Below are positions 26,583 to 58,603 of a DNA stretch of 64,000 nucleotides, piece after piece; positions within the stretch are counted from its first letter, which is position 1, and every line of letters begins with the position of its first letter. The notes beneath the pieces are model-generated. The model saw only the letters and a program-made list of their open reading frames with translations, was not told where the DNA came from and did no database searches. Source of the stretch: Stutzerimonas stutzeri (GTDB lineage: Bacteria; Pseudomonadota; Gammaproteobacteria; Pseudomonadales; Pseudomonadaceae). The translations under genes were made by a program, and so were the position numbers. The stretch covers positions 1 through 64,000 of the forward strand of contig NZ_POUL01000002.1 in the NCBI RefSeq assembly GCF_002890895.1, given 5' to 3'.

Positions 26583-27839
26583 TTACCAGAGCGCCAGGGT
26601 GTAGCTGAGAATCACGCGGGTTTCATTGATGTCACTGCCGAAGTTGCTGCGCACGGTGGCGTTGCGCACCTTCATGCCGAGGTTCTTCAACGGCCCGCTC
26701 TGGACTACATAGGCGATGTCGGTGTCGCGCTCCCACTCTTCACCTTCTCCGCCGCCTGCCAGGTTGACGTTGTCACCGGACACATAGCGGGTCATCAGGC
26801 TCAGCCCGGGGATGCCCGCCGCGGCGAAGTCATAGTCGTAGCGGACCTGCCAGGATTTCTCGTCTTCGTTACCGAAGTCGTTGATCTGCAGCAGGTTGAT
26901 CAGCATGTTGTCGCCACCGCTGATATACGCAAAACCGGTGTCGCCGCTCAACGTCTGGTAACCGCCAGTAAACGCGTGGCCGCCGAGCTTGTAAGTGAAC
27001 AGCGCACCGAAGGCGTTGTTGTCGACGTTGCTGCCGCCGTCATCGGTGGAGCGCACGTAGCGCAGGTCGGTCTTGAAGCTCTGGTTTTCGCCGAGCGCCA
27101 TGATGTGGACCAGCTGCGTGTTGTGTTGCTTGTAGATGCCGTCCAGTCCGCCGTAGTAATAGCTACCGGTCAGTTCGGGCATGAACTGGTATTTGCCGCC
27201 GGCGAACATGAACTCGTCGCTGGTGGCGGTATTCCCCAGCACAATATTTCGCGCGCCGCCATTGAACACCGCCATCTCTTCGTAGTTCGAGGAGTCACGG
27301 TAGCTGGTGCGGTCGAGCATGCCGAGATCGAGCGTCAGCCCATCGACCTCTTTGCTCTGCAACCAGGCACCACGGTAGATGCTAGGCAACAGACGGCTGT
27401 CGTTGCGCATCACCACCGGGATGATCGGTTGCAGGGTGCCGACGTGCAGGGTTGTGTTGGACATCTTCGCTTTGGCGGTCAGGCCGGCGGTGCCGTAGTC
27501 GTCGGACGGCTGACCGGACGAGCCCCTCTGCAGGATGCCGGTGCCGGAGCGATCCGGGCTGGAATCGAGCTTGACGCCCAGCAGGCCGAGGGCATCAAGG
27601 CCAAAGCCGACCGGCCCTTCGGTGTAGCCTGATTCCATTTTCAGAATGAAACCCTGCGCCCACTCGTCAGCCTTGGACTGCGGAGCGCCGGACTGACGGA
27701 AATCACGGTTCATGTAGAAGTTACGCAGCTCGACGGTTGCCTTGCTGTCATCGAGAAATGCGGCGTTGGCGGTGCCGGCAGTGCCTAGCGCAACGCCTAG
27801 GCAAAGGAGGCCGCGGGTGGTCTTGCGGTGGTCTTGCAT
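26583..27839 (-). CDS. OprD-family outer-membrane porin
   Basis: Predicted substrate-specific outer-membrane channel (418 residues). A signal peptide ends around GTANA near residue 26, then comes the OprD pattern AFLDDSKATVELRNFYMNRDF and [20 protein letters not shown]. The chain ends in YTLALW with the terminal aromatic residue expected of a barrel. The start has AGAGGAAA upstream; the open frame continues 82 codons further but that part is promoter DNA. It has its own sigma-54-type promoter (27873-27888) and dyads. It neighbours the exported esterase gene and probably admits the substrate or product of that enzyme. The substrate is unknown. Confidence 0.9.
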   Translation of the reverse strand: MQDHRKTTRGLLCLGVALGTAGTANAAFLDDSKATVELRNFYMNRDFRQSGAPQSKADEWAQGFILKMESGYTEGPVGFGLDALGLLGVKLDSSPDRSGTGILQRGSSGQPSDDYGTAGLTAKAKMSNTTLHVGTLQPIIPVVMRNDSRLLPSIYRGAWLQSKEVDGLTLDLGMLDRTSYRDSSNYEEMAVFNGGARNIVLGNTATSDEFMFAGGKYQFMPELTGSYYYGGLDGIYKQHNTQLVHIMALGENQSFKTDLRYVRSTDDGGSNVDNNAFGALFTYKLGGHAFTGGYQTLSGDTGFAYISGGDNMLINLLQINDFGNEDEKSWQVRYDYDFAAAGIPGLSLMTRYVSGDNVNLAGGGEGEEWERDTDIAYVVQSGPLKNLGMKVRNATVRSNFGSDINETRVILSYTLALW

Positions 27840-27872
27840 GGTCTTTCCTCTTGTTGTTATTGGGTTGGCCTC

Positions 27873-27888
27873 AGCGAATGCCGTGCCA
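27873..27888 (-). promoter_or_regulatory. Sigma-54 (-24/-12) promoter of the porin gene
   Basis: On the minus strand: TGGCACGGCATTCGCT, with GG and GC separated by the required ten bases and TGGCACG exact for the -24 box. It differs at one base from the element before bdhA. The porin ATG is 34 bases further downstream. Confidence 0.75.
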
Positions 27889-27997
27889 GCTCTGGTTGGG
27901 CGCGCTAACAAATCCCGGAACAGCGTGCGCAGAGCGTCATCGGAGCAGGATGTGCAGTTGCTGCACCGAGGATCTGAGGCAGCGGCGACGGATCGGA

Positions 27998-28056
27998 TGT
28001 CCAATCGTGCGGACATGTTCAGGGCAGGAGCCAGGAAGTGTTCAGTCCGCTGGACG
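27998..28056. promoter_or_regulatory. Enhancer dyads TGTCC-N8-GGACA upstream of the porin
   Basis: A perfect dyad TGTCC-AATCGTGC-GGACA at 27998-28015 and a degenerate one TGTTC-N8-GGACG at 28039-28056, 41 bases apart centre to centre (about four turns). The near dyad centre lies about 118 bases from the promoter edge. Likely binding sites for a sigma-54 activator (inference). Confidence 0.65.
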
Positions 28057-28117
28057 CTTGTCGGGGAGGCTACGAAGCGCCGCATTCATCCTGAGCAGCA
28101 TGAATGCGGCGGCGGCT

Positions 28118-29845
28118 TCAGTGCCGGCCTTGATGGCTCTTCACGCAGACAAAGCTGGAGGCGTCGTTTACATCGCCGCGTCGCTTGTACTTCGGCCAGC
28201 CGGGGTATTCACAAAGTGGGCGGGTGCGACCAGGGACGGCGACGGTGTCTGTGACGATCTGGCGCTTGGGCGCGAAGCCCACCTCGACCCAGTTTTCCAG
28301 CGCCGACAGCGAATCCCAGGCGGCGTTGAACACCGTGCTGGCCGCATGGGCGTAGCCGGGGATCTCGTAATAGCGCATGAACCGACGGGTCTGCCCAACG
28401 CCCATGTCCAGTTGCACGCGCCGGTAGTACTCAGCCGTGGCGCGGGTGCTGACCAACTGATCCGAGGTGCCGTGAGCCATCAGAATCTTGCCGCCATTGG
28501 CAACGAATGCCGACAGATCAGTCTGGTTGACGTCCTGGCGCAACGACAGCGCATCGACTCGCGCTTGCCACGGGCCAAGGTTGGCGGGGTCAAGTGTCAG
28601 CGAGTTGAAGGCTGGATTGCGGGTCACGAAATAGCGCACCCACTCATCCCAAAACCCGGAGTGGTAGGGCGCGCCCTCGGCGAAGCCTGTGCCGTGTACC
28701 GGCATCGGATAGTCGGGCTGCAGGGTGTTGAGGCCAAGCCGGTTGACGATCGCTTGCAGGCCTTCGCCAGGCCGTCCCAGATCGGTGCCCCAGGTATTGA
28801 AGCCGGGGTAGCCGCGTTCGCCACTGGCCAGGGGCTGGCTGAAACGGATCGGCGTATCGAACACCTTGAGCGCACTGATCTGCGCATCGGACAAGCAGCT
28901 GCTACCCGTGTCAGCGCCATCGGAGCAGCGCAAGGGGCGGCCGTTGAGCTTGGCGGTGGCTGGATCGAACTGGGCGTTGCATGCCGCCTGGTTGCTGATC
29001 ACCCCGTCGCGCACGCCATCAAGCCCGTCGCAGGCCTGCATCGAGGCTTCCAGCAGGGCAGAGCGCTTTTCCAGGCTGGGGTAGGCGCCCGGCGAGGCAA
29101 GCGCGCGGGTAATGCGGCCAAATTGCAGATCGAGTGCGGCGGCGTTGTAGGCCGGGTAGAGCACGATCGCGCCGTGAAAATCCGTTGGCCACTGCTGCAC
29201 CACCGCAAGCGCCTCTCGGCCCCCGGTGGAACCGCCGGCGAAGTAGCTGCGCACCGGAGGCTGGCCGTAGCGTTGCTCGATCAGGTACATCGCCGTATCA
29301 CGGGTCTTCTTCAAGGCATCGTGACCGTAGTTGGCCAAGGCCTCTTCGTTCCAGGCGAAGTCGCCGGGGTTGAGGGGATTGGCTACGTGGCCAGAGTCGC
29401 TGGCGAACACCGCATAGCCACGGCCCAGCGGCGTCGGCTGGTCGACCGGGCCGGCCGGAACATTGCCGGCCACGTTTGGCACGGTGCCGTTATAGCCGCC
29501 ACCGCCATACATCATCGCTTTGCTGTTCCATCGTTCAGGCAGAACGATGCGCATCCTGATGTTGGGCGCGCTCCGGTCAATCGGCGCGATTTCCACGCTC
29601 AGGTCGCAATATGGGCCAAAGGTTTGCGGTGCGCTGCCACCGCCTGGCACCAACGTCGCAGCGGTAACTTTCGCTCCAGAGGTCGGCAGAGCTATCGCAG
29701 CGGCAGGAATCTGGGCACCGTTCAACTCAGCGCAACTGGCAGCGAGCGTGGGTTCGGCCGCTGCCAGCGCGAGTAAGGCCGGGATCGTCAGCCGCAGCCG
29801 CTGGGATGTGGCGTAGCGAAAGCGGGGTGCATGGGGTGCTTTCAT
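28118..29845 (-). CDS. Exported tannase/feruloyl esterase-family hydrolase
   Basis: 575-residue esterase of the tannase family (the fold of feruloyl esterase B and MHETase). A signal peptide ends near residue 36 (PTLAAS), so it is periplasmic or secreted. Catalytic candidates are S206 in AGGSTGGRE, D462 in HGTSDQLV and H500 in PGYAHA. A calcium loop DGLDGVRDGVI is at about 273-283. The two cysteines that flank Ser and His in typical members (CS-D-HC motif) are here G205 and A501, although eight other cysteines remain. It has its own sigma-54-type promoter and dyads. Substrate unknown: aromatic esters by family, hydroxyacid esters if the regulon inference holds. Confidence 0.88.
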   Translation of the reverse strand: MKAPHAPRFRYATSQRLRLTIPALLALAAAEPTLAASCAELNGAQIPAAAIALPTSGAKVTAATLVPGGGSAPQTFGPYCDLSVEIAPIDRSAPNIRMRIVLPERWNSKAMMYGGGGYNGTVPNVAGNVPAGPVDQPTPLGRGYAVFASDSGHVANPLNPGDFAWNEEALANYGHDALKKTRDTAMYLIEQRYGQPPVRSYFAGGSTGGREALAVVQQWPTDFHGAIVLYPAYNAAALDLQFGRITRALASPGAYPSLEKRSALLEASMQACDGLDGVRDGVISNQAACNAQFDPATAKLNGRPLRCSDGADTGSSCLSDAQISALKVFDTPIRFSQPLASGERGYPGFNTWGTDLGRPGEGLQAIVNRLGLNTLQPDYPMPVHGTGFAEGAPYHSGFWDEWVRYFVTRNPAFNSLTLDPANLGPWQARVDALSLRQDVNQTDLSAFVANGGKILMAHGTSDQLVSTRATAEYYRRVQLDMGVGQTRRFMRYYEIPGYAHAASTVFNAAWDSLSALENWVEVGFAPKRQIVTDTVAVPGRTRPLCEYPGWPKYKRRGDVNDASSFVCVKSHQGRH

Positions 29846-29938
29846 TTGGCGTTTCCTTCTTCTTGTTGTCATGCCTTGTAGCTGACGCCACAAGGTGGAT
29901 ACCCGAGAAGACAGCGCTGCAACCGGGCCTGGAGGTTG

Positions 29939-29954
29939 AGCCAAAGCTGTGCCA
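29939..29954 (-). promoter_or_regulatory. Sigma-54 (-24/-12) promoter of the exported esterase gene
   Basis: On the minus strand: TGGCACAGCTTTGGCT, with GG-N10-GC spacing and an exact TGGCAC -24 core. It differs at two positions from the bdhA element. The esterase ATG is 94 bases further downstream and has AAGGA before it. Confidence 0.7.
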
Positions 29955-30063
29955 GTCATACGTGGGTCGAGGTTGAGGCCGATGACCGGTCACCAGATCA
30001 CAGGCGGACCGCTCTAGCGCGTCGAGCAGCAGGTTGAACGCGGTGCTCTCAGACGATCTCGTC

Positions 30064-30112
30064 TGTCCAAGTTGCAGGACATGGATAGGCGCAATGTCGT
30101 CCCGTCTGGACA
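30064..30112. promoter_or_regulatory. Enhancer dyads TGTCC-N8-GGACA upstream of the esterase
   Basis: A perfect dyad TGTCC-AAGTTGCA-GGACA at 30064-30081 and a near-perfect one TGTCG-N8-GGACA at 30095-30112, 31 bases apart (about three turns). The near dyad centre is about 118 bases from the promoter edge, as at the porin. The rest of the spacer up to 30365 shows no gene. Confidence 0.65.
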
Positions 30113-50862: not shown

Positions 50863-51929
50863 ATGTCGGTCGAGGCGGATTTTTCACTGCTTGAATCACT
50901 GTTGCTGGCCGTGGGCCTGGCGGCCAGGAAGAGGAAGTCCGGGCGGTGTGCCGCGCGGAACTTGAAGCGAGCTGCGATGAGGTCTGGGTAGATGCAGCGA
51001 ACAACCTGATCGGGGTGATCCGTGCTGCAAACGTGGCGCGAGAAACGGCGCAGTCACGAGCGATTCGGGTCATGGCACATCAGGATGAAATCGCCATGGT
51101 GGTCAAACGCATCGGCGACGATGGGCGGCTTCACGTCGTTGCGCTGGGAGGGGCCTTTCCGGTGAACTTCGGGATGTGTCCGGTCGATGTGATGGGCGAA
51201 TCGCAAAATCTGCCGGGGGTGCTGTCTTTTGGCACCATGCACGGGACAGCCGAATCGACCCAGTCGATGGATATCCTCAGCGGCAATGTGCAGTGGCGCG
51301 ATGTACACGTCATCACCCGGCGAACCAGAGACGAGCTGGCGCAAATGGGCGTAAGACCGGGCACTCGGGTCGTTCTGAGTCAACATTGGCGTCGACCATT
51401 CCGCGTACACGACGCCATTGCCGGCCACTTCCTCGATGACCGCGCGCCGGTGGTTGCCGTCCTGCGCGCAGCTGAGGCGCTGGCTGAGCGCAAGGGCGAG
51501 CTCGAACAGGACCTGTATTTCGTGCTGACCACCAACGAAGAGGAAACCAACTCGGGTGCGCAGTACGCGGCGCGAACACTGCCGGGCGTGGTGTGCATCG
51601 CGATTGAAGTGGGACCCATCGCGCAAGAGTACGGCACGCGGTTGTGTGCGGACCCGATCATCCTGACCGGGGACGAGAAGGGCCTGTACACCAAGTCCGT
51701 CTCCGATGACCTGTTGGGCGCGGCCATCCGCTGTGGCTACACCCCTCAACCGGCGCTTATGCCCGGCTTTGCCTCCGATGCCAGCGCAGTGCTCAGCTCG
51801 GGCTCTTCGCCTCAAGCCGGTTGCCTGGCTATCCCGACGGAGAATACGCATGGCTACGAGTTGATTACCGATGACGGCATGCACGCCTGTGCGCGCACGC
51901 TCATCGAGTACCTCCTGAATGCAGCGTAA
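50863..51929 (+). pseudogene. M42-family metallo-aminopeptidase with one-base frameshift
   Basis: The gene begins with AGGAGG and ATG at 50863, reading MSVEADFSLLESLLLAVGLA. Around 50922 the frame shifts: after one extra base the product continues GQEEEVRAVCRAELEASC and runs intact to 51929. Metal-site motifs of the M42 (tetrahedral aminopeptidase) family are present downstream: AHQDEI, HFLDDRAP, TTNEEETNSGA, IEVGP and ENTHGYE. Total length 1067 bases is one short of 356 codons, consistent with loss of one G from GCGGGCC. The downstream frame has only a GTG at 50946 with no ribosome site. A recent mutation or a sequencing error. Confidence 0.85.
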
Positions 51930-52068: not shown

Positions 52069-52136
52069 CGTCCAGCCAATCGGACACTGGCGTTGCGCTA
52101 TGTATGCCAGGGTACGCATGTACAGATTCTTAGACA
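52069..52136. promoter_or_regulatory. Enhancer dyads upstream of bdhA
   Basis: CGTCC-AGCCAATC-GGACA at 52069-52086 (nine of ten arm bases) and TGTAC-AGATTCTT-AGACA at 52119-52136 (eight of ten), 50 bases apart. They lie about 105 and 155 bases from the promoter edge at 52233. These are weaker copies of the dyad at the porin, esterase and TRAP units. The rest of 51930-52230 shows no gene. Confidence 0.5.
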
Positions 52137-52232: not shown

Positions 52233-52248
52233 TGGCACGGCTTTCGCT
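52233..52248 (+). promoter_or_regulatory. Sigma-54 (-24/-12) promoter upstream of bdhA
   Basis: TGGCACGGCTTTCGCT: an exact TGGCACG -24 box, GG and GC ten bases apart, and TCGC in place of TTGC at -12. It differs at one position from the porin promoter. The bdhA ATG is about 230 bases on, leaving room for a leader that contains the small ORF at 52335. Confidence 0.7.
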
Positions 52249-52334: not shown

Positions 52335-52484
52335 ATGAAGCCCCGTCCCGAACCTGCTGACGCGTCAGTTTGCTTTGTGTCGTCTGTCTCCGTCTTACCA
52401 TTAATGGCCCATGCTGTGTATTGCGCGCGCGGTATGTCCCGCGCCGCCATTGGTGACGCTGTGCGCCTGCGGAGGCCAGTATGA
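52335..52484 (+). CDS. Small ORF overlapping the bdhA start (possible leader peptide)
   Basis: 49-codon frame starting ATG with AAGGA eight bases upstream, ending in a TGA that overlaps the bdhA ATG (ATGA). The product MKPRPEPADASVCFVSS and onward has a mildly hydrophobic centre and an Arg-rich end, and no family I know. Spacing and overlap would allow translational coupling with bdhA. It may equally be chance; bdhA has its own GGAGG. Confidence 0.3.
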   Translation: MKPRPEPADASVCFVSSVSVLPLMAHAVYCARGMSRAAIGDAVRLRRPV

Positions 52485-53251
52485 AACTCAACGGCCGATC
52501 GGCTCTCGTAACTGGCTCGACCAGCGGAATAGGGCTCGGCATCGCTTGCAAGCTGGCGGAGGCGGGCGCGAATGTGATGCTCAATGGTTTTGGCGATGTC
52601 GATGCCGCCGTTGCGCAAGTATCAGCGTATGGCACCCGCGTCCTGCATCACCCAGCTGACGTATCCGACGCCGATCAGATTGCGGAAATGGTCGCCGAGA
52701 CCGAACGCGAATTCGGCACCTTGGACGTGCTGGTGAACAACGCGGGTATTCAGCACGTTGCGCCGATCGAGAGCTTTCCGGCAGAGCGTTGGAACAGCAT
52801 CATCGCCATCAATCTGTCTTCGGCCTTTCACACCATCCGCCTGGCCTTGCCCGGTATGCGGCAGCGCAACTGGGGGCGGATCATCAACGTTTCTTCGGCC
52901 CACGGGCTGGTGGCTTCGGCTCAGAAGTCTGCCTACGTGGCGGCCAAGCACGGCTTGGTCGGATTGACCAAAAGTGTCGCGCTGGAAACCGCCACTACCG
53001 GAATAACCTGCAACGCCATCTGCCCGGGTTGGGTGCTGACGCCTCTGGTGCAGCAGCAGATCGACAACATTGCCAAAGCCCATGGCGACCCCCAGCGTGC
53101 AACGCGTGAGTTGCTGATGGAAAAACAGCCGTCACTGGACTTCGTGACGCCGGAGCAACTCGGTGAATTGACGCTTTTCCTGTGCAGCGATGCAGCCATT
53201 CAGGTGCGTGGCGTCGCCTGGAACATGGATGGCGGCTGGGTCGCGCAGTAG
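52481..53251 (+). CDS. bdhA: 3-hydroxybutyrate dehydrogenase
   Basis: Short-chain dehydrogenase (256 residues) that oxidises (R)-3-hydroxybutyrate to acetoacetate with NAD+. The cofactor motif GSTSGIGLGIACKL is near residue 12, NNAGIQHV near 86, the catalytic serine in NVSSAHGLVAS and YVAAKHG (YxxxK). The C-terminus VRGVAWNMDGGWVAQ and the insert QQQIDNIAK-AHG are typical of bacterial BdhA. GGAGG precedes the ATG. It is convergent with the sigma-54 activator gene and has a sigma-54-type promoter upstream. Its product feeds the CoA-transferase and thiolase genes in this window. Confidence 0.93.
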   Translation: MKLNGRSALVTGSTSGIGLGIACKLAEAGANVMLNGFGDVDAAVAQVSAYGTRVLHHPADVSDADQIAEMVAETEREFGTLDVLVNNAGIQHVAPIESFPAERWNSIIAINLSSAFHTIRLALPGMRQRNWGRIINVSSAHGLVASAQKSAYVAAKHGLVGLTKSVALETATTGITCNAICPGWVLTPLVQQQIDNIAKAHGDPQRATRELLMEKQPSLDFVTPEQLGELTLFLCSDAAIQVRGVAWNMDGGWVAQ

Positions 53252-53453: not shown

Positions 53454-54944
53454 TCAGCGCTCGCTCAAGCCATGCAACTGAAGCTTTGAGTACAGGCTTG
53501 CTCTGGAGATGCCCAGCTCGACCGCTGCGCGGCGGCGGTTGCCTTTGCAGGCGAGCAGGGCGGTCTGCAAGGCGCGGCGTTCGGCCTGGGCGATGCTCTC
53601 TGCGAGGAGTTGCAGTGGGGCGTTGGGTTCCGGTGTGGGTTCAGCAAGCATCGGCTCACTGGGGGTGAAGGCAGCCTGCGGCGCGGCGGCAGTCTTCGCG
53701 CCCAACAGCGGCAGGAAATGGCGCGCTTCCAGCGGTGTGCCATCCGCGCTCAGCTGTGCGCGTTCTAGTAGGTTGCCCAATTCGCGCACGTTGCCGCGCC
53801 AGGGCTGGTTACAGAGCAATGCAATGGCGCTCGGCGCAAGTTCCATCGGAGCCTGCCCGGAGCGGTTGGCAATGTCATCGAGCAGATGTTCGATCACGGC
53901 GGGTATGTCGGCGGCACGGTCGCGCAACGGCGGCACCTGCAGCGCCAGCACGTTGAGTCGATAATAGAGGTCATCGCGAAACTCGCCGGCAGCGACCTTG
54001 GCTTCCAGATCAATGTGCGTGGCGGCGATCACCCGCACGTTCAGTGGCTTGACCTGATTGGAGCCCAGTGGCTCGATTTCCTGCTCCTGCAGCACCCGCA
54101 ACAGCTTGGCTTGCAGGGCCAATGGGAGGTCGCCGATTTCGTCGAGAAAAAGCGTGCCCCCGTTGGCCACTTCGAACTTGCCGATGCGCGCCTTGCGATC
54201 TGCACCAGTAAAGGCGCCAGGCGCGGTGCCGAACAGCTCGGCTTCGACCAATGTCTCTGGAATCGCCGCGACGTTGACGGCAACGAAAGGCCCATTGGCG
54301 CGCGGCGACAGGTTATGAATGCCCTGAGCCAGCAGCTCCTTGCCGGTGCCGGTCTCGCCGCGGATCAGCACGGTGGCGTCCAGCTGTGCGGCGCGACGAG
54401 CCTGACGTTTAACTTCACTGGCGGCCGGGCTGGTGCCGATAAAGCCTGCAATGGTGTAGCGCGCCCGGCGAGCCTTGGCCAGCTCGTTCTGGGTCGCGAC
54501 CAGCTGCGTCTGCAGCGTGGTGAACTTGGACATCAAGGGCTTCAGGTGCCGGGCTCGGTCGAACAGCACGAAACCCAGGGCGCCGACCAGGGTGCCGTCC
54601 TCGTCACGAAGCGGGATTCGCGTCACGACAAAATGCTCGCTGCCGAAAGCCATCAGATCGAGCATGCTCGGCTGGCCGCTCTCCACCACTTCGCGCAAGC
54701 GGCTGGCGGGCAGCACTTCTTCGATTTCCTTGCCGAGAACACTGCGCGGGTCGCTGATGCCGATCTTTTCCGCGTATTTGTCATTGATCCAGACGATACG
54801 CGCCTGGCGATTGACCGCGATGGTGCCTTCGCACTGAGCATTGAGGTGGTCGAACAGCAGCGGCATGGCCACCGCACGGAAGCGTTCGGGCGATACGCCG
54901 ATGGTCAGGCCGTTGAGGTCAAGGTCGTTGCGGGCGATTGCCAT
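53454..54944 (-). CDS. Sigma-54 enhancer-binding activator (PAS-AAA+-Fis), HbcR-like
   Basis: 496 residues: PAS-like sensor (about 25-135), coiled coil (about 138-160), AAA+ domain (about 165-400) and a Fis-type HTH (about 465-492). Walker A is GETGTGK at 196-202, the sigma-54 contact loop GAFTGA at 243-248 is intact, and Walker B is in GTLFLDEIGDL. It would bind upstream dyads and open sigma-54 promoters. It lies 76 bases after dctM, so is likely in the TRAP operon, and opposite bdhA. In P. aeruginosa an activator of this kind (PA2005/HbcR) controls 3-hydroxybutyrate use; I infer the same role here. The start has no strong ribosome site. Confidence 0.9.
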   Translation of the reverse strand: MAIARNDLDLNGLTIGVSPERFRAVAMPLLFDHLNAQCEGTIAVNRQARIVWINDKYAEKIGISDPRSVLGKEIEEVLPASRLREVVESGQPSMLDLMAFGSEHFVVTRIPLRDEDGTLVGALGFVLFDRARHLKPLMSKFTTLQTQLVATQNELAKARRARYTIAGFIGTSPAASEVKRQARRAAQLDATVLIRGETGTGKELLAQGIHNLSPRANGPFVAVNVAAIPETLVEAELFGTAPGAFTGADRKARIGKFEVANGGTLFLDEIGDLPLALQAKLLRVLQEQEIEPLGSNQVKPLNVRVIAATHIDLEAKVAAGEFRDDLYYRLNVLALQVPPLRDRAADIPAVIEHLLDDIANRSGQAPMELAPSAIALLCNQPWRGNVRELGNLLERAQLSADGTPLEARHFLPLLGAKTAAAPQAAFTPSEPMLAEPTPEPNAPLQLLAESIAQAERRALQTALLACKGNRRRAAVELGISRASLYSKLQLHGLSER

Positions 54945-55020: not shown

Positions 55021-56388
55021 TCAGAGTCCGTACACCTCGTTGGGTAGCCACGTCGCCAGCGGCGCAAAGAAGAACACCAAGGCCAGGCCGAGCAGCTGAA
55101 TCAGGATGTAGGGCATAACGCCGAGATAGACGTCCCGCGTCGTGACCTCCGGAGGGCAGACCCCCTTGATGTAGAACAGCGCGAAGCCCACGGGCGGAGT
55201 CAGGAAGGAGGTTTGCAGGCACAGCGCGAAGAGCACCGCGAACCAGAGCGGGTCGACACCCATGGAAAACAGCACCGGCGCAACCAGCGGCAGGATGATC
55301 AGCGTGATCTCCACCCAGTCCAGGAAAAAGCCCAGCAGGAAGGTGATGAACAGTACGGTTAGCAGCACACCGGTCTGACCGAACGGCAAACCCGTGAGCG
55401 CGGCACGGATCACGTCATCACCGCCCAGGCCGCGCAACACTGCGGCGAACACCGTGGCGCCGATAAAGATGCCGAAGATGAATGCCGAGGTGCGGCTGGT
55501 CTGGTAGAGCGCTTCCTTCAATACCGCCATGTTCAGCTTGCGGCTGAGGGCCGCCATCAGCACCGCACCAAACGCACCGACCGCAGACGCTTCCGTCGTT
55601 GTAGCGATACCGAAGAAGATCGAGCCGAGCACGGCCAGAATCAGGACGAAGGGCGGCACCACTGCCCAGAACACATCGATCAGCGCCTTGGCATCAAGCT
55701 TCTGGCGATTGGCAGGAGCAGGCGCAAAGTCCTTCTTCAGCCACGACACCACCACGATGTAGAGGATGTACATCAGGGCCAGCATCATCCCGGGTACCAG
55801 AGCACCCATGAACAGCTTGCCCACCGAGGCTTCGGAGGTGCCGAGTCGGTCGGCCATCAGGACCAGCATGATGCTAGGCGGAATCAGAATGCCCAGCGTA
55901 CCGACCGAACAAGCGGTGCCGACGGCAAGGCTCTTGTTGTATTTGGCCTGCAGCATCGGCCCGATCGAGAGCATGCCGAGCAAGGCCACCGAGGCGCCGA
56001 CGATACCGGTAGAAGCGGCCAGCAAAATGCCCACCAGCACCACTGTTACGGCGTAACCACCACGCAACGGACCGAGCACCCGGACCAGGCTGTGCATCAG
56101 CCGCTCGGCGATGCCGGAGCGGTCGAGCATGATGCCCATGAAGATGAAAAGCGGCAGGGCAACCATCAGCTCATTGGCGACAATGCCGTAGATGCGTGCG
56201 TCCAGTACCCCGATGGTGCCGTCCCAGGTGAACCAGAGGTCAGCATCGAAGTGCTCGACCATGACGTGCCCGAGTACCGCGAACAACAACCCGATGCCGG
56301 CCAGTGACCAGGCGACCGGAAAGCCAAGCAGCAGCAGCCCCATGAAGGTGGCGAACATGCTGATGACGAGAATTTCTTCCAGACCCAT
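55021..56388 (-). CDS. dctM: TRAP transporter large permease (DctM)
   Basis: 455-residue large membrane subunit of a tripartite ATP-independent periplasmic transporter, with about twelve hydrophobic segments that carry the Na+-coupled transport path. Family stretches: FATFMGLLLLGFPVAWSLAG, PLFIFMGIMLDRSGIA, GILIPPSIMLVL and TEASAVGAFGAVL. It lies 16 bases after dctQ. The start MGLEEILVISMF was preferred; 16 further upstream codons are open but overlap the dctQ end. Substrate unknown. Confidence 0.93.
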   Translation of the reverse strand: MGLEEILVISMFATFMGLLLLGFPVAWSLAGIGLLFAVLGHVMVEHFDADLWFTWDGTIGVLDARIYGIVANELMVALPLFIFMGIMLDRSGIAERLMHSLVRVLGPLRGGYAVTVVLVGILLAASTGIVGASVALLGMLSIGPMLQAKYNKSLAVGTACSVGTLGILIPPSIMLVLMADRLGTSEASVGKLFMGALVPGMMLALMYILYIVVVSWLKKDFAPAPANRQKLDAKALIDVFWAVVPPFVLILAVLGSIFFGIATTTEASAVGAFGAVLMAALSRKLNMAVLKEALYQTSRTSAFIFGIFIGATVFAAVLRGLGGDDVIRAALTGLPFGQTGVLLTVLFITFLLGFFLDWVEITLIILPLVAPVLFSMGVDPLWFAVLFALCLQTSFLTPPVGFALFYIKGVCPPEVTTRDVYLGVMPYILIQLLGLALVFFFAPLATWLPNEVYGL

Positions 56389-56404
56389 GATTACGGCTAC
56401 TCCA

Positions 56405-57025
56405 TCAGGGCTGCGAATGGCCGCGGTCGCGGTCATGCGTCGGGGCTATAAAAGCCCGGGGAAAGTTGAATAGCAGCGTGCTGCAGCGTGTGGCCCGTGA
56501 CAGCAAGGCCAGCGCAACCAGCGTCAGCCCGATGGGCAATACGCTCTTGAAGATGTAACGGTGCGGCAGCCCGCTTGGCGCCTGAGAACGCTCGTCATAG
56601 ATGAAGGCTTGGTAGGCGAAGGGCACCAGCGCATCGACCATCAGCACCACGATCGGCAATGCCAATATCAGGATCGCCAGCAGTTCGATGAGGGCCTGGC
56701 TGCGCAGCGTGAATTTCTCGCGCAGCACGTCGACGCGGACATGGTCGTCACGCACCACGGCATAGGCCAGGGCGAGCATCAAAGCGGCACCGAACAGATG
56801 CCAGGACAATTCTTCCAACGCGATCGAGCCGCGAGACAGCACGAAGCGGCTGAACACGTTGGTCAGCACCACCGCCAGGACCAGCAGCCAGATCCATGCG
56901 CTGGCTTCACCGATGGCGACAAGCGCCTTGTCCAGCCACCAAGACAGTTTGTTGTGAGGCAGTGCATCCGCTTGAGCGGCAGGCACTGCGTCATTAGGGG
57001 AAACGGGATGAGCGGACACGGCCAC
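56405..57025 (-). CDS. dctQ: TRAP transporter small permease (DctQ)
   Basis: 206-residue small membrane subunit with four predicted membrane segments (for example ASAWIWLLVLAVVLTNVFSRF and ALMLALAYAVVRDDHVRVD, the latter a DctQ hallmark). It bridges DctM and the binding protein. The start is a GTG at 57025; a second GTG two codons later, with GAGG before it, is equally likely. A long stem-loop separates it from dctP. Confidence 0.88.
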   Translation of the reverse strand: MAVSAHPVSPNDAVPAAQADALPHNKLSWWLDKALVAIGEASAWIWLLVLAVVLTNVFSRFVLSRGSIALEELSWHLFGAALMLALAYAVVRDDHVRVDVLREKFTLRSQALIELLAILILALPIVVLMVDALVPFAYQAFIYDERSQAPSGLPHRYIFKSVLPIGLTLVALALLSRATRCSTLLFNFPRAFIAPTHDRDRGHSQP

Positions 57026-57227: not shown

Positions 57228-58313
57228 TCACTCGTACTGGTAGTAATCGCGCGGCAAGTAGCCTTTGCCGTGCCAGATCGAGTGATGCTTCATGAAGTCG
57301 CGCTGGCTGCTCAGAACGCGGTTGAACATCTCGTCCTTGGCGGCTATTTCATCGAGCACTTCGTTGGTTACGCGCTCCAGCTCACGCAGTACTTCTTCAG
57401 GCAGCACCTGGGCCTTCACGCCTTGCTTTTCGTACTCGCGCAAGGCGGTCGGCTGGGCCCACTCGCTCTCGGCAAAGCCTTTGAGCGTGGCCGACTCGCA
57501 ACCCATCTCGATCAACGCGCGGCTCTGTGGCTCAAGCTTGTCCCAGACGTCCTTGTTGACCAGCAGGTGCGAGGTGGTCAGCGTCTGGTGCCAGCCCGGC
57601 ATGATGTAGTTCTTGATGATCTGATCGAGGCCCAGCATCTTGTCGATTGCTGGCTGCGAGAACTCGGTGGCGTCGATGGTCTTGCGCTCCAGCGCCTGAT
57701 AGATCTCGCCGCCGGGGATCATGGTGACCGAGGCGCCGAGCTTCTCCAGTACCTTGCCGCCGATGCCGGCAAAGCGGATGCGCAGGCCATCGAAGTCTTC
57801 CAGCTTCTCGATTGGCTGGGCAAACCAACCCGCGCCCTCAGGACCGATGATGCTGCAGAGCATCGGGTGAATGTTGCGCTCGGCATAAATCTCTTCCAGC
57901 AGCTTCTTGCCATCACCCTCGTAGTACCAGGCCAGATAGGCTGGCGGCTCCATATTGAAGGGTGCGCCGGAGTACAGGGGGAGTGAGGCAATTGTGCCCT
58001 GGTCGTAGCCGATCCAGGTGTAGCCAGCGGGGTACTTGCCGTTGCTGACTGCATCCATGATTTCGAAGGGTGGCACCAGTTCGCCAGGCTCGTAGTAGCG
58101 CAGCTGGATATCACCGCCAGAAATGGCTTTGAGGGATTCTGAGAGATGCTTGATAGGTGTGGTCAGACCGACCAGGTGAGAGGGAAAGGCCAGGGGCACT
58201 TGCCAGCGAATCTTCTCGGCTGCCATGACGTCAGTGCTGATCAGGCTGGCGCTGAGAAGGGTGGTAGCACCGATGGCGCAGGCGAGTCGGGACAGCTTTT
58301 TGGATATCGACAT
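57228..58313 (-). CDS. dctP: TRAP transporter substrate-binding protein (DctP)
   Basis: 361-residue periplasmic binding protein. A signal peptide ends around DVMA near residue 34, and the mature chain starts AEKIRWQVPLAFPSHLVG. The features GLRIRFAGIGGKVLEKLGAS and PGGEIYQALERKTIDATEF are DctP-typical, including the conserved substrate-binding arginine. It resembles the mannitol/chloroaromatic subgroup. AAGGAAACC precedes the ATG. First gene of dctP-dctQ-dctM-activator, with a sigma-54-type promoter and three dyads upstream. A 3-hydroxyacid is a reasonable guess at the ligand given the bdhA neighbour, but this is inference. Confidence 0.92.
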   Translation of the reverse strand: MSISKKLSRLACAIGATTLLSASLISTDVMAAEKIRWQVPLAFPSHLVGLTTPIKHLSESLKAISGGDIQLRYYEPGELVPPFEIMDAVSNGKYPAGYTWIGYDQGTIASLPLYSGAPFNMEPPAYLAWYYEGDGKKLLEEIYAERNIHPMLCSIIGPEGAGWFAQPIEKLEDFDGLRIRFAGIGGKVLEKLGASVTMIPGGEIYQALERKTIDATEFSQPAIDKMLGLDQIIKNYIMPGWHQTLTTSHLLVNKDVWDKLEPQSRALIEMGCESATLKGFAESEWAQPTALREYEKQGVKAQVLPEEVLRELERVTNEVLDEIAAKDEMFNRVLSSQRDFMKHHSIWHGKGYLPRDYYQYE

Positions 58314-58444: not shown

Positions 58445-58460
58445 AGCAGGTTCTGTGCCT
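58445..58460 (-). promoter_or_regulatory. Sigma-54 (-24/-12) promoter of the TRAP operon
   Basis: On the minus strand: AGGCACAGAACCTGCT, with GG-N10-GC spacing, GGCAC at -24 and CTGC at -12. It is a weaker match than those before bdhA and the porin. The dctP ATG is about 130 bases downstream. The remaining spacer (58314-58690) holds the dyads and no gene. Confidence 0.6.
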
Positions 58461-58524: not shown

Positions 58525-58603
58525 TGTCCAACTGGCCGGACACTCATCCGCGCCGACCTAAGGGCTGTCCAAACCTCTGGACTGATGTCTATATATCTGG
58601 ACC
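58525..58603. promoter_or_regulatory. Three enhancer dyads upstream of the TRAP operon
   Basis: TGTCC-AACTGGCC-GGACA (58525-58542, perfect), TGTCC-AAACCTCT-GGACT (58566-58583, nine of ten) and TGTCT-ATATATCT-GGACC (58586-58603, eight of ten). Centre spacings are 41 and 20 bases (about four and two turns). The centres lie about 73, 114 and 134 bases from the promoter edge. Likely binding sites of the activator encoded in the same operon. Confidence 0.7.

Follow-up and report, generated by a model that had tools for sequence, protein, structure and literature searches.

A 64,000-nucleotide stretch of the Stutzerimonas stutzeri genome (NZ_POUL01000002.1, positions 1 to 64,000; hereafter the window) carries four units that would very likely answer to one activator: an OprD-family porin gene, a gene for an exported esterase, an operon encoding a tripartite ATP-independent periplasmic (TRAP) transporter together with a sigma-54 activator, and bdhA, which encodes 3-hydroxybutyrate (3HB) dehydrogenase. 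We consider it probable that these units form a single regulon for scavenging the breakdown products of poly(3-hydroxybutyrate) (PHB), governed by an HbcR-type activator with (R)-3HB as its inducer.

The porin gene (26583-27839, minus strand; OccK-like, PF03573 at 504 bits) and the esterase gene (28118-29845, minus strand, start ATG 29845) are each preceded by their own sigma-54 −24/−12 element, TGGCACGGCATTCGCT at 27873-27888 and TGGCACAGCTTTGGCT at 29939-29954, and by a perfect TGTCC-N8-GGACA dyad, TGTCCAATCGTGCGGACA at 27998-28015 and TGTCCAAGTTGCAGGACA at 30064-30081, all on the minus strand. The centre of the perfect dyad lies 118.5 bp from the promoter edge at both genes, in line with the original prediction, made from the window, of an element and a perfect dyad at each gene about 118 bases apart. 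The imperfect second dyads that it proposed were likewise recovered, with two mismatches and 41 bp beyond the first dyad at the porin (28039-28056, minus strand), and with one mismatch and 31 bp beyond the first at the esterase (30095-30112, minus strand). Its distance of about 22 kb to the activator gene also held, measuring approximately 22-25 kb.

Corresponding sites precede the other two units. The bdhA gene (52481-53251, plus strand; NCBIfam TIGR01963 at 358 bits, above cut-off) has a sigma-54 element, TGGCACGGCTTTCGCT, at 52233-52248, a dyad with one mismatch at 52069-52086 and a second dyad with two mismatches, 50 bp from the first, at 52119-52136 (all plus strand). Upstream of dctP, a perfect dyad at 58525-58542 is located 73.5 bp from the promoter of the TRAP–activator operon (AGGCACAGAACCTGCT, 58445-58460), with a one-mismatch dyad 41 bp beyond it at 58566-58583 (all minus strand). 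The transporter set is complete, comprising the solute-binding protein DctP (57228-58313, ATG 58313; PF03480), the small permease DctQ (56405-57025; PF04290) and the large permease DctM (55021-56436; PF06808), all on the minus strand. Among solved chains, DctP is nearest to a ketoacid-binding protein (7ug8) and other, related TRAP binding proteins, a likeness that we count in favour of the PHB regulon. The activator gene (53454-54944, minus strand) is separated from bdhA by 0.2 kb and encodes PAS, AAA+ and Fis-type helix-turn-helix domains. Its open reading frame as listed begins at TTG 55067 and overlaps dctM; ATG 54944 is the more likely start because residues 38-42 are where many matches to orthologues start. 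We call the activator HbcR-type on the basis of its AAA+ sigma-54 domain, its Fis-type helix-turn-helix, the nearby bdhA and the −24/−12 elements with shared dyads at its targets, rather than by comparison with a named P. aeruginosa sequence. An M42-type peptidase gene (50946-51929) lies immediately 5′ of bdhA and stays next to the cluster in some relatives (loci L085 and L090).

The dyads are far more frequent in the window than expected. Eight with at most one mismatch were observed against 2.0 expected, a number that no shuffle attained, and we therefore rejected a chance origin. The −24/−12 pattern by itself was not significant (18 against 12.4 expected in the window), so that significance rests in the combination of dyad and promoter. 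Across the whole 4.45-Mb genome, only 3 of the 11 exact dyads have a plausible −24/−12 element within 260 bp, namely those of the porin, the esterase and the TRAP operon in the window; conversely, there are 11 strong −24/−12 elements genome-wide, and dyads occur within 300 bp only at those of the porin, the esterase and bdhA.

As the original prediction had proposed, we looked for the sites upstream of orthologues, and found them kept rather than lost. Counting non-identical upstream regions in Stutzerimonas, and requiring at the esterase, porin and bdhA that a −24/−12 element follow a dyad of no more than one mismatch at a distance of 50-200 bp, we found the combination in 32/35 esterase, 26/27 porin and 18/31 bdhA regions; mononucleotide shuffles reach it in about 2%. 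At dctP, where the dyad alone was required, it was present in 20 of 21 regions, and a GG-N10-GC element is nearly identical in all 21, in most of them as a near-identical AGGCACAGAACCTGC[TA]. Adjacent dyads are mostly spaced by 19-21, 31-33, 41-43 or 49-53 bp, near whole helix turns, and neighbouring dyads are predicted to share one face of the helix. The control upstream regions of hmgL, pcaF, pcaD and a LysR gene yielded no dyad with promoter (0/12 each for pcaF and pcaD), and the NhaP control region is the esterase's own intergenic region, shared between the two genes. Matches at atoD in the control scan were dyads without a promoter; one-mismatch dyads lacking a sigma-54 element lie 5′ of atoD in 15 of 23 Stutzerimonas regions, probably within the hmgL coding sequence. 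S. azotifigens retains the esterase while the activator, dyads and promoter are all absent, and S. nosocomialis retains it without dyad or promoter.

Gene order agrees with the sites. In many Stutzerimonas, including S. chloritidismutans, S. kunmingensis and S. stutzeri KOS6, the genes are contiguous and co-oriented in the order hmgL-atoD-atoA-thiolase-dctP-dctQ-dctM-activator-esterase-porin; in the window's lineage, the esterase–porin pair sits about 22 kb away and adjoins pca genes. S. stutzeri 24a75 has a distant CoA-transferase pair (26-28% identity to AtoDA) between esterase and porin (L116:12105-13544), and S. xanthomarina has a chemoreceptor-like gene (L092:11887-14013) in the porin's place between esterase and pcaD. 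Activator orthologues with approximately 68-84% identity occur in other Pseudomonadaceae, one of them in the order activator-GntP-bdhA, and most of the loci examined there have the same dyad and a TGGCAY-type promoter nearby. The order activator-porin-bdhA, with or without TRAP genes, is found in two other Pseudomonadaceae genera, activator-GntP-bdhA in a third and activator-GntP-CoA transferase-porin in a fourth; the porin is 66-70% identical in other genera of the family. Because the porin stands beside the activator in these genera, its link to the activator is independent of the esterase. Thus, site exclusivity, conservation and physical linkage all agree with the earlier proposal that porin and esterase share the activator of bdhA and the TRAP operon, and the contiguous activator-esterase-porin and activator-porin-bdhA orders back the common route that it had drawn through these units.

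The clearest clue to the substrate is an extracellular PHB depolymerase, PhaZ, at the head of the activator cluster in two other Pseudomonadaceae genera (PhaZ-dctPQM-activator-porin-bdhA and PhaZ-activator-porin-bdhA). PhaZ has Esterase_PHB and Ig-like domains and a signal-like N-terminal sequence, and scores 204 and 215 bits against NF050058 (extracellular type 1 short-chain-length polyhydroxyalkanoate depolymerase; cut-off 150). In these two genera, it is preceded by three dyads and a conserved TGGCAC/T-N4-ATTCCA. In three Stutzerimonas, paired dyads with a 19-bp separation lie upstream of phaZ, and TGGCACAACATGCGCA follows the nearer of them by approximately 142-151 bp, a geometry close to that of the second-lineage esterase promoter. 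That a secreted PHB depolymerase gene shares the cluster or its control sites speaks for the substrate originally guessed, a 3HB ester or oligomer. In the two other genera, the PHB depolymerase gene adjoins a TRAP system and/or the HbcR-type activator at loci L230, L232 and L270, an apparent PHB-use cluster.

The esterase carries a signal peptide and matches PF07519 at 359 bits (gathering score, 29.8). Its Pfam matches are limited to Tannase and two general hydrolase profiles, and at an E value of 0.001 none was to a known 3HB-oligomer hydrolase family. Its sequence matches the mono(2-hydroxyethyl) terephthalate (MHET) hydrolase MHETase (E = 3e-49). Among solved structures, an AlphaFold2 model built from 37 homologues (pLDDT of 90.5) is matched best by MHETase, along the whole chain (Z = 37.9, 2.9 Å, 506 residues, 27% identity), and alignment places the catalytic triad at Ser206-Asp462-His500, invariant in the 37 homologues. 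In MHETase, feruloyl esterases and tannase, a hallmark CS-D-HC motif provides a disulfide that bridges the neighbours of the catalytic Ser and His, and Arg411 of MHETase binds the substrate carboxylate. The esterase lacks this Cys pair, with Gly205 in 37/37 homologues, Ala501 in 33/37 and Cys in none; the remaining four Cys pairs are retained, and Arg411 aligns with Tyr394 (36/37 homologues). Because both the active-site disulfide and Arg411 are missing, we assign the esterase by sequence to a distinct PF07519 clade, not to the MHETases. In the proposed regulon it is the candidate 3HB-oligomer hydrolase. The nearest solved chains to the porin are OccK-type (3t24 at 555 bits, OpdO and OpdH), with OprD scoring just 227 bits.

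The window's esterase is 92% identical to that of S. xanthomarina. The enzyme is present in 45 of 56 Stutzerimonas genomes, and no match at E = 1e-60 was found in the other Pseudomonadaceae genera sampled; its relatives at 54-67% identity are mostly from Burkholderiales. Because it is confined to Stutzerimonas within the family and its relatives are mostly from that order, its distribution suggests horizontal acquisition. A scan of a viral collection returned no relatives. The neighbours of betaproteobacterial homologues (a chemoreceptor, a tRNA ligase, a metallo-hydrolase, and short-chain dehydrogenases/reductases (SDRs) with a beta-keto acid cleavage enzyme) do not point conclusively to a substrate. 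At three such loci (L123:7233-9206, L151:8223-9782 and L155:1-951), a sigma-54 activator of another type, with 36-39% identity, is encoded directly 5′ of the esterase homologue; a promoter scan of these loci found no −24/−12 element. In Paraburkholderia and Burkholderia (L157, L160 and L161), the homologue follows SDR dehydrogenases and, at L157, also a beta-keto acid cleavage enzyme, of which L160 and L161 have relatives by clustering; a parallel hydroxyacid-ester route is possible there.

In the PHB regulon that we propose, the PAS-AAA+-Fis activator would sense (R)-3HB, an inducer suggested by analogy because P. fluorescens HbcR is activated by this compound (PMC10482368) and HbcR (PA2005) is cited as controlling bdhA in P. 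aeruginosa (Microbiology 2015, doi 10.1099/mic.0.000163; cited in PMC13390443 and PMC4894688). It would bind the paired dyads on one helix face, approximately 70-160 bp upstream, and open the promoters, presumably with RpoN. Since its gene follows dctM, the activator would probably amplify its own expression. Short 3HB oligomers would be released by a secreted PHB depolymerase, the cell's own in a few strains and that of other organisms here, and the OccK-type porin may let them in. Cleavage to 3HB would fall to the exported esterase, probably in the periplasm; the TRAP system would import the monomer, and BdhA and acetoacetate enzymes would convert it to acetyl-CoA. Use of PHB oligomers is the best reading of the regulon, and a fairly probable one. 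The chances seem about even for a wider claim, that one (R)-3HB-responsive sigma-54 activator governs a complete outside-to-inside system in which the disulfide-less, MHETase-fold esterase founds a new, unrelated family of 3HB-oligomer hydrolases and PHB fragments have, in the OccK porin and TRAP transporter, their first dedicated channel and pump.

Several observations weigh against this account. The regulon rests on sites, conservation, linkage and a predicted fold, and it is from these that we infer binding, expression and enzyme activity. No PF10503 depolymerase was found in the source genome, PhaZ of the type described occurs in only 3 of 56 Stutzerimonas genomes, and its promoters in the two other genera depart from consensus with CC instead of GC at −12. 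Sites at bdhA are confined to the window's lineage; in the second lineage bdhA (about 75% identity) lies elsewhere and has none. One esterase gene (genome G026) has a promoter with no recognisable dyad, and in S. xanthomarina and two others the porin is missing beside the esterase, as is its dyad. Outside Stutzerimonas, the surroundings of the esterase homologues vary and no dyads accompany them.

The lack of a depolymerase in the source genome would also fit the same regulon with an esterase acting on some other 3HB ester, such as a simple alkyl 3HB ester or the 3-hydroxybutyryl decoration of an exopolysaccharide, and enzymes of this fold class (feruloyl esterases, tannase and MHETase) strip acyl groups from larger molecules. 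Depolymerase genes in the cluster or behind the same sites in three genera make this rather unlikely. Instead of (R)-3HB, the activator might sense a different small beta-hydroxy or keto acid, with the route serving general scavenging of short-chain hydroxyacids, given that its cluster in some genera encodes, in place of bdhA, a GntP permease and a CoA transferase, and that one Stutzerimonas lineage keeps bdhA outside the regulon. With bdhA or a PHB depolymerase accompanying the activator in several genera, and P. fluorescens HbcR responding to (R)-3HB (PMC10482368), we hold this to be quite unlikely.

The tannase-family annotation and the adjacent pca genes in the window's lineage raise a route in which esterase and porin handle aromatic esters (ferulate or MHET-like) that feed those genes. 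We rejected it as very improbable on context, absent sites and absent Arg411: pcaF and pcaD have neither dyads nor sigma-54 sites, the pair in the other lineage adjoins the activator and TRAP genes, away from pcaD, and Tyr394 stands where MHETase has Arg411. Finally, the dyads could belong to a different regulator and lie near sigma-54 promoters by coincidence, as activator binding to the dyads is a prediction and 8 of the 11 exact dyads lie elsewhere in the genome. Those eight have no convincing sigma-54 element, however, the sites travel with the activator gene across genera, and the esterase sites are absent where the activator is (S. azotifigens), which leaves coincidence extremely improbable.

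How PHB fragments cross the envelope and are cleaved to monomer in pseudomonads is undescribed in the literature searched. The proposed regulon amounts to a full gene set, open to testing and united by a common control site, and gives a likely job to the porin, the TRAP system and a functionally unplaced branch of MHETase-like esterases. As the depolymerase is rare in Stutzerimonas, most would rely on oligomers from others; this suggests that many Stutzerimonas may feed on what others release, with a bearing on bioplastic decay.

Among the titles and abstracts that the literature searches returned, none showed a tannase-family 3HB-oligomer hydrolase or a 3HB TRAP or porin system. The closest parallel is HbcR/bdhA, with which the window shares a sigma-54 activator adjoining bdhA, the (R)-3HB inducer being that of P. 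fluorescens HbcR (PMC10482368); unlike the P. aeruginosa system, the regulon here would extend beyond bdhA to a TRAP transporter, an OprD-type porin and an exported esterase, joined in relatives by a PHB depolymerase. The esterase resembles Ideonella sakaiensis MHETase in its predicted whole-length fold and aligned Ser-Asp-His triad, but differs in lacking the active-site disulfide and Arg411 and in its genomic setting. Its proposed reaction, 3HB oligomers to monomer, is that of the extracellular 3HB-oligomer hydrolase PhaY (EC 3.1.1.22) of Pseudomonas sp. A1, as cited in PMC7830162, although the two come from different sequence families. The porin belongs with the P. aeruginosa OccK channels OpdO, OpdH and OpdK (291-457 bits), which are of carboxylate type, and is distinguished from them by its predicted co-regulation with 3HB catabolism.

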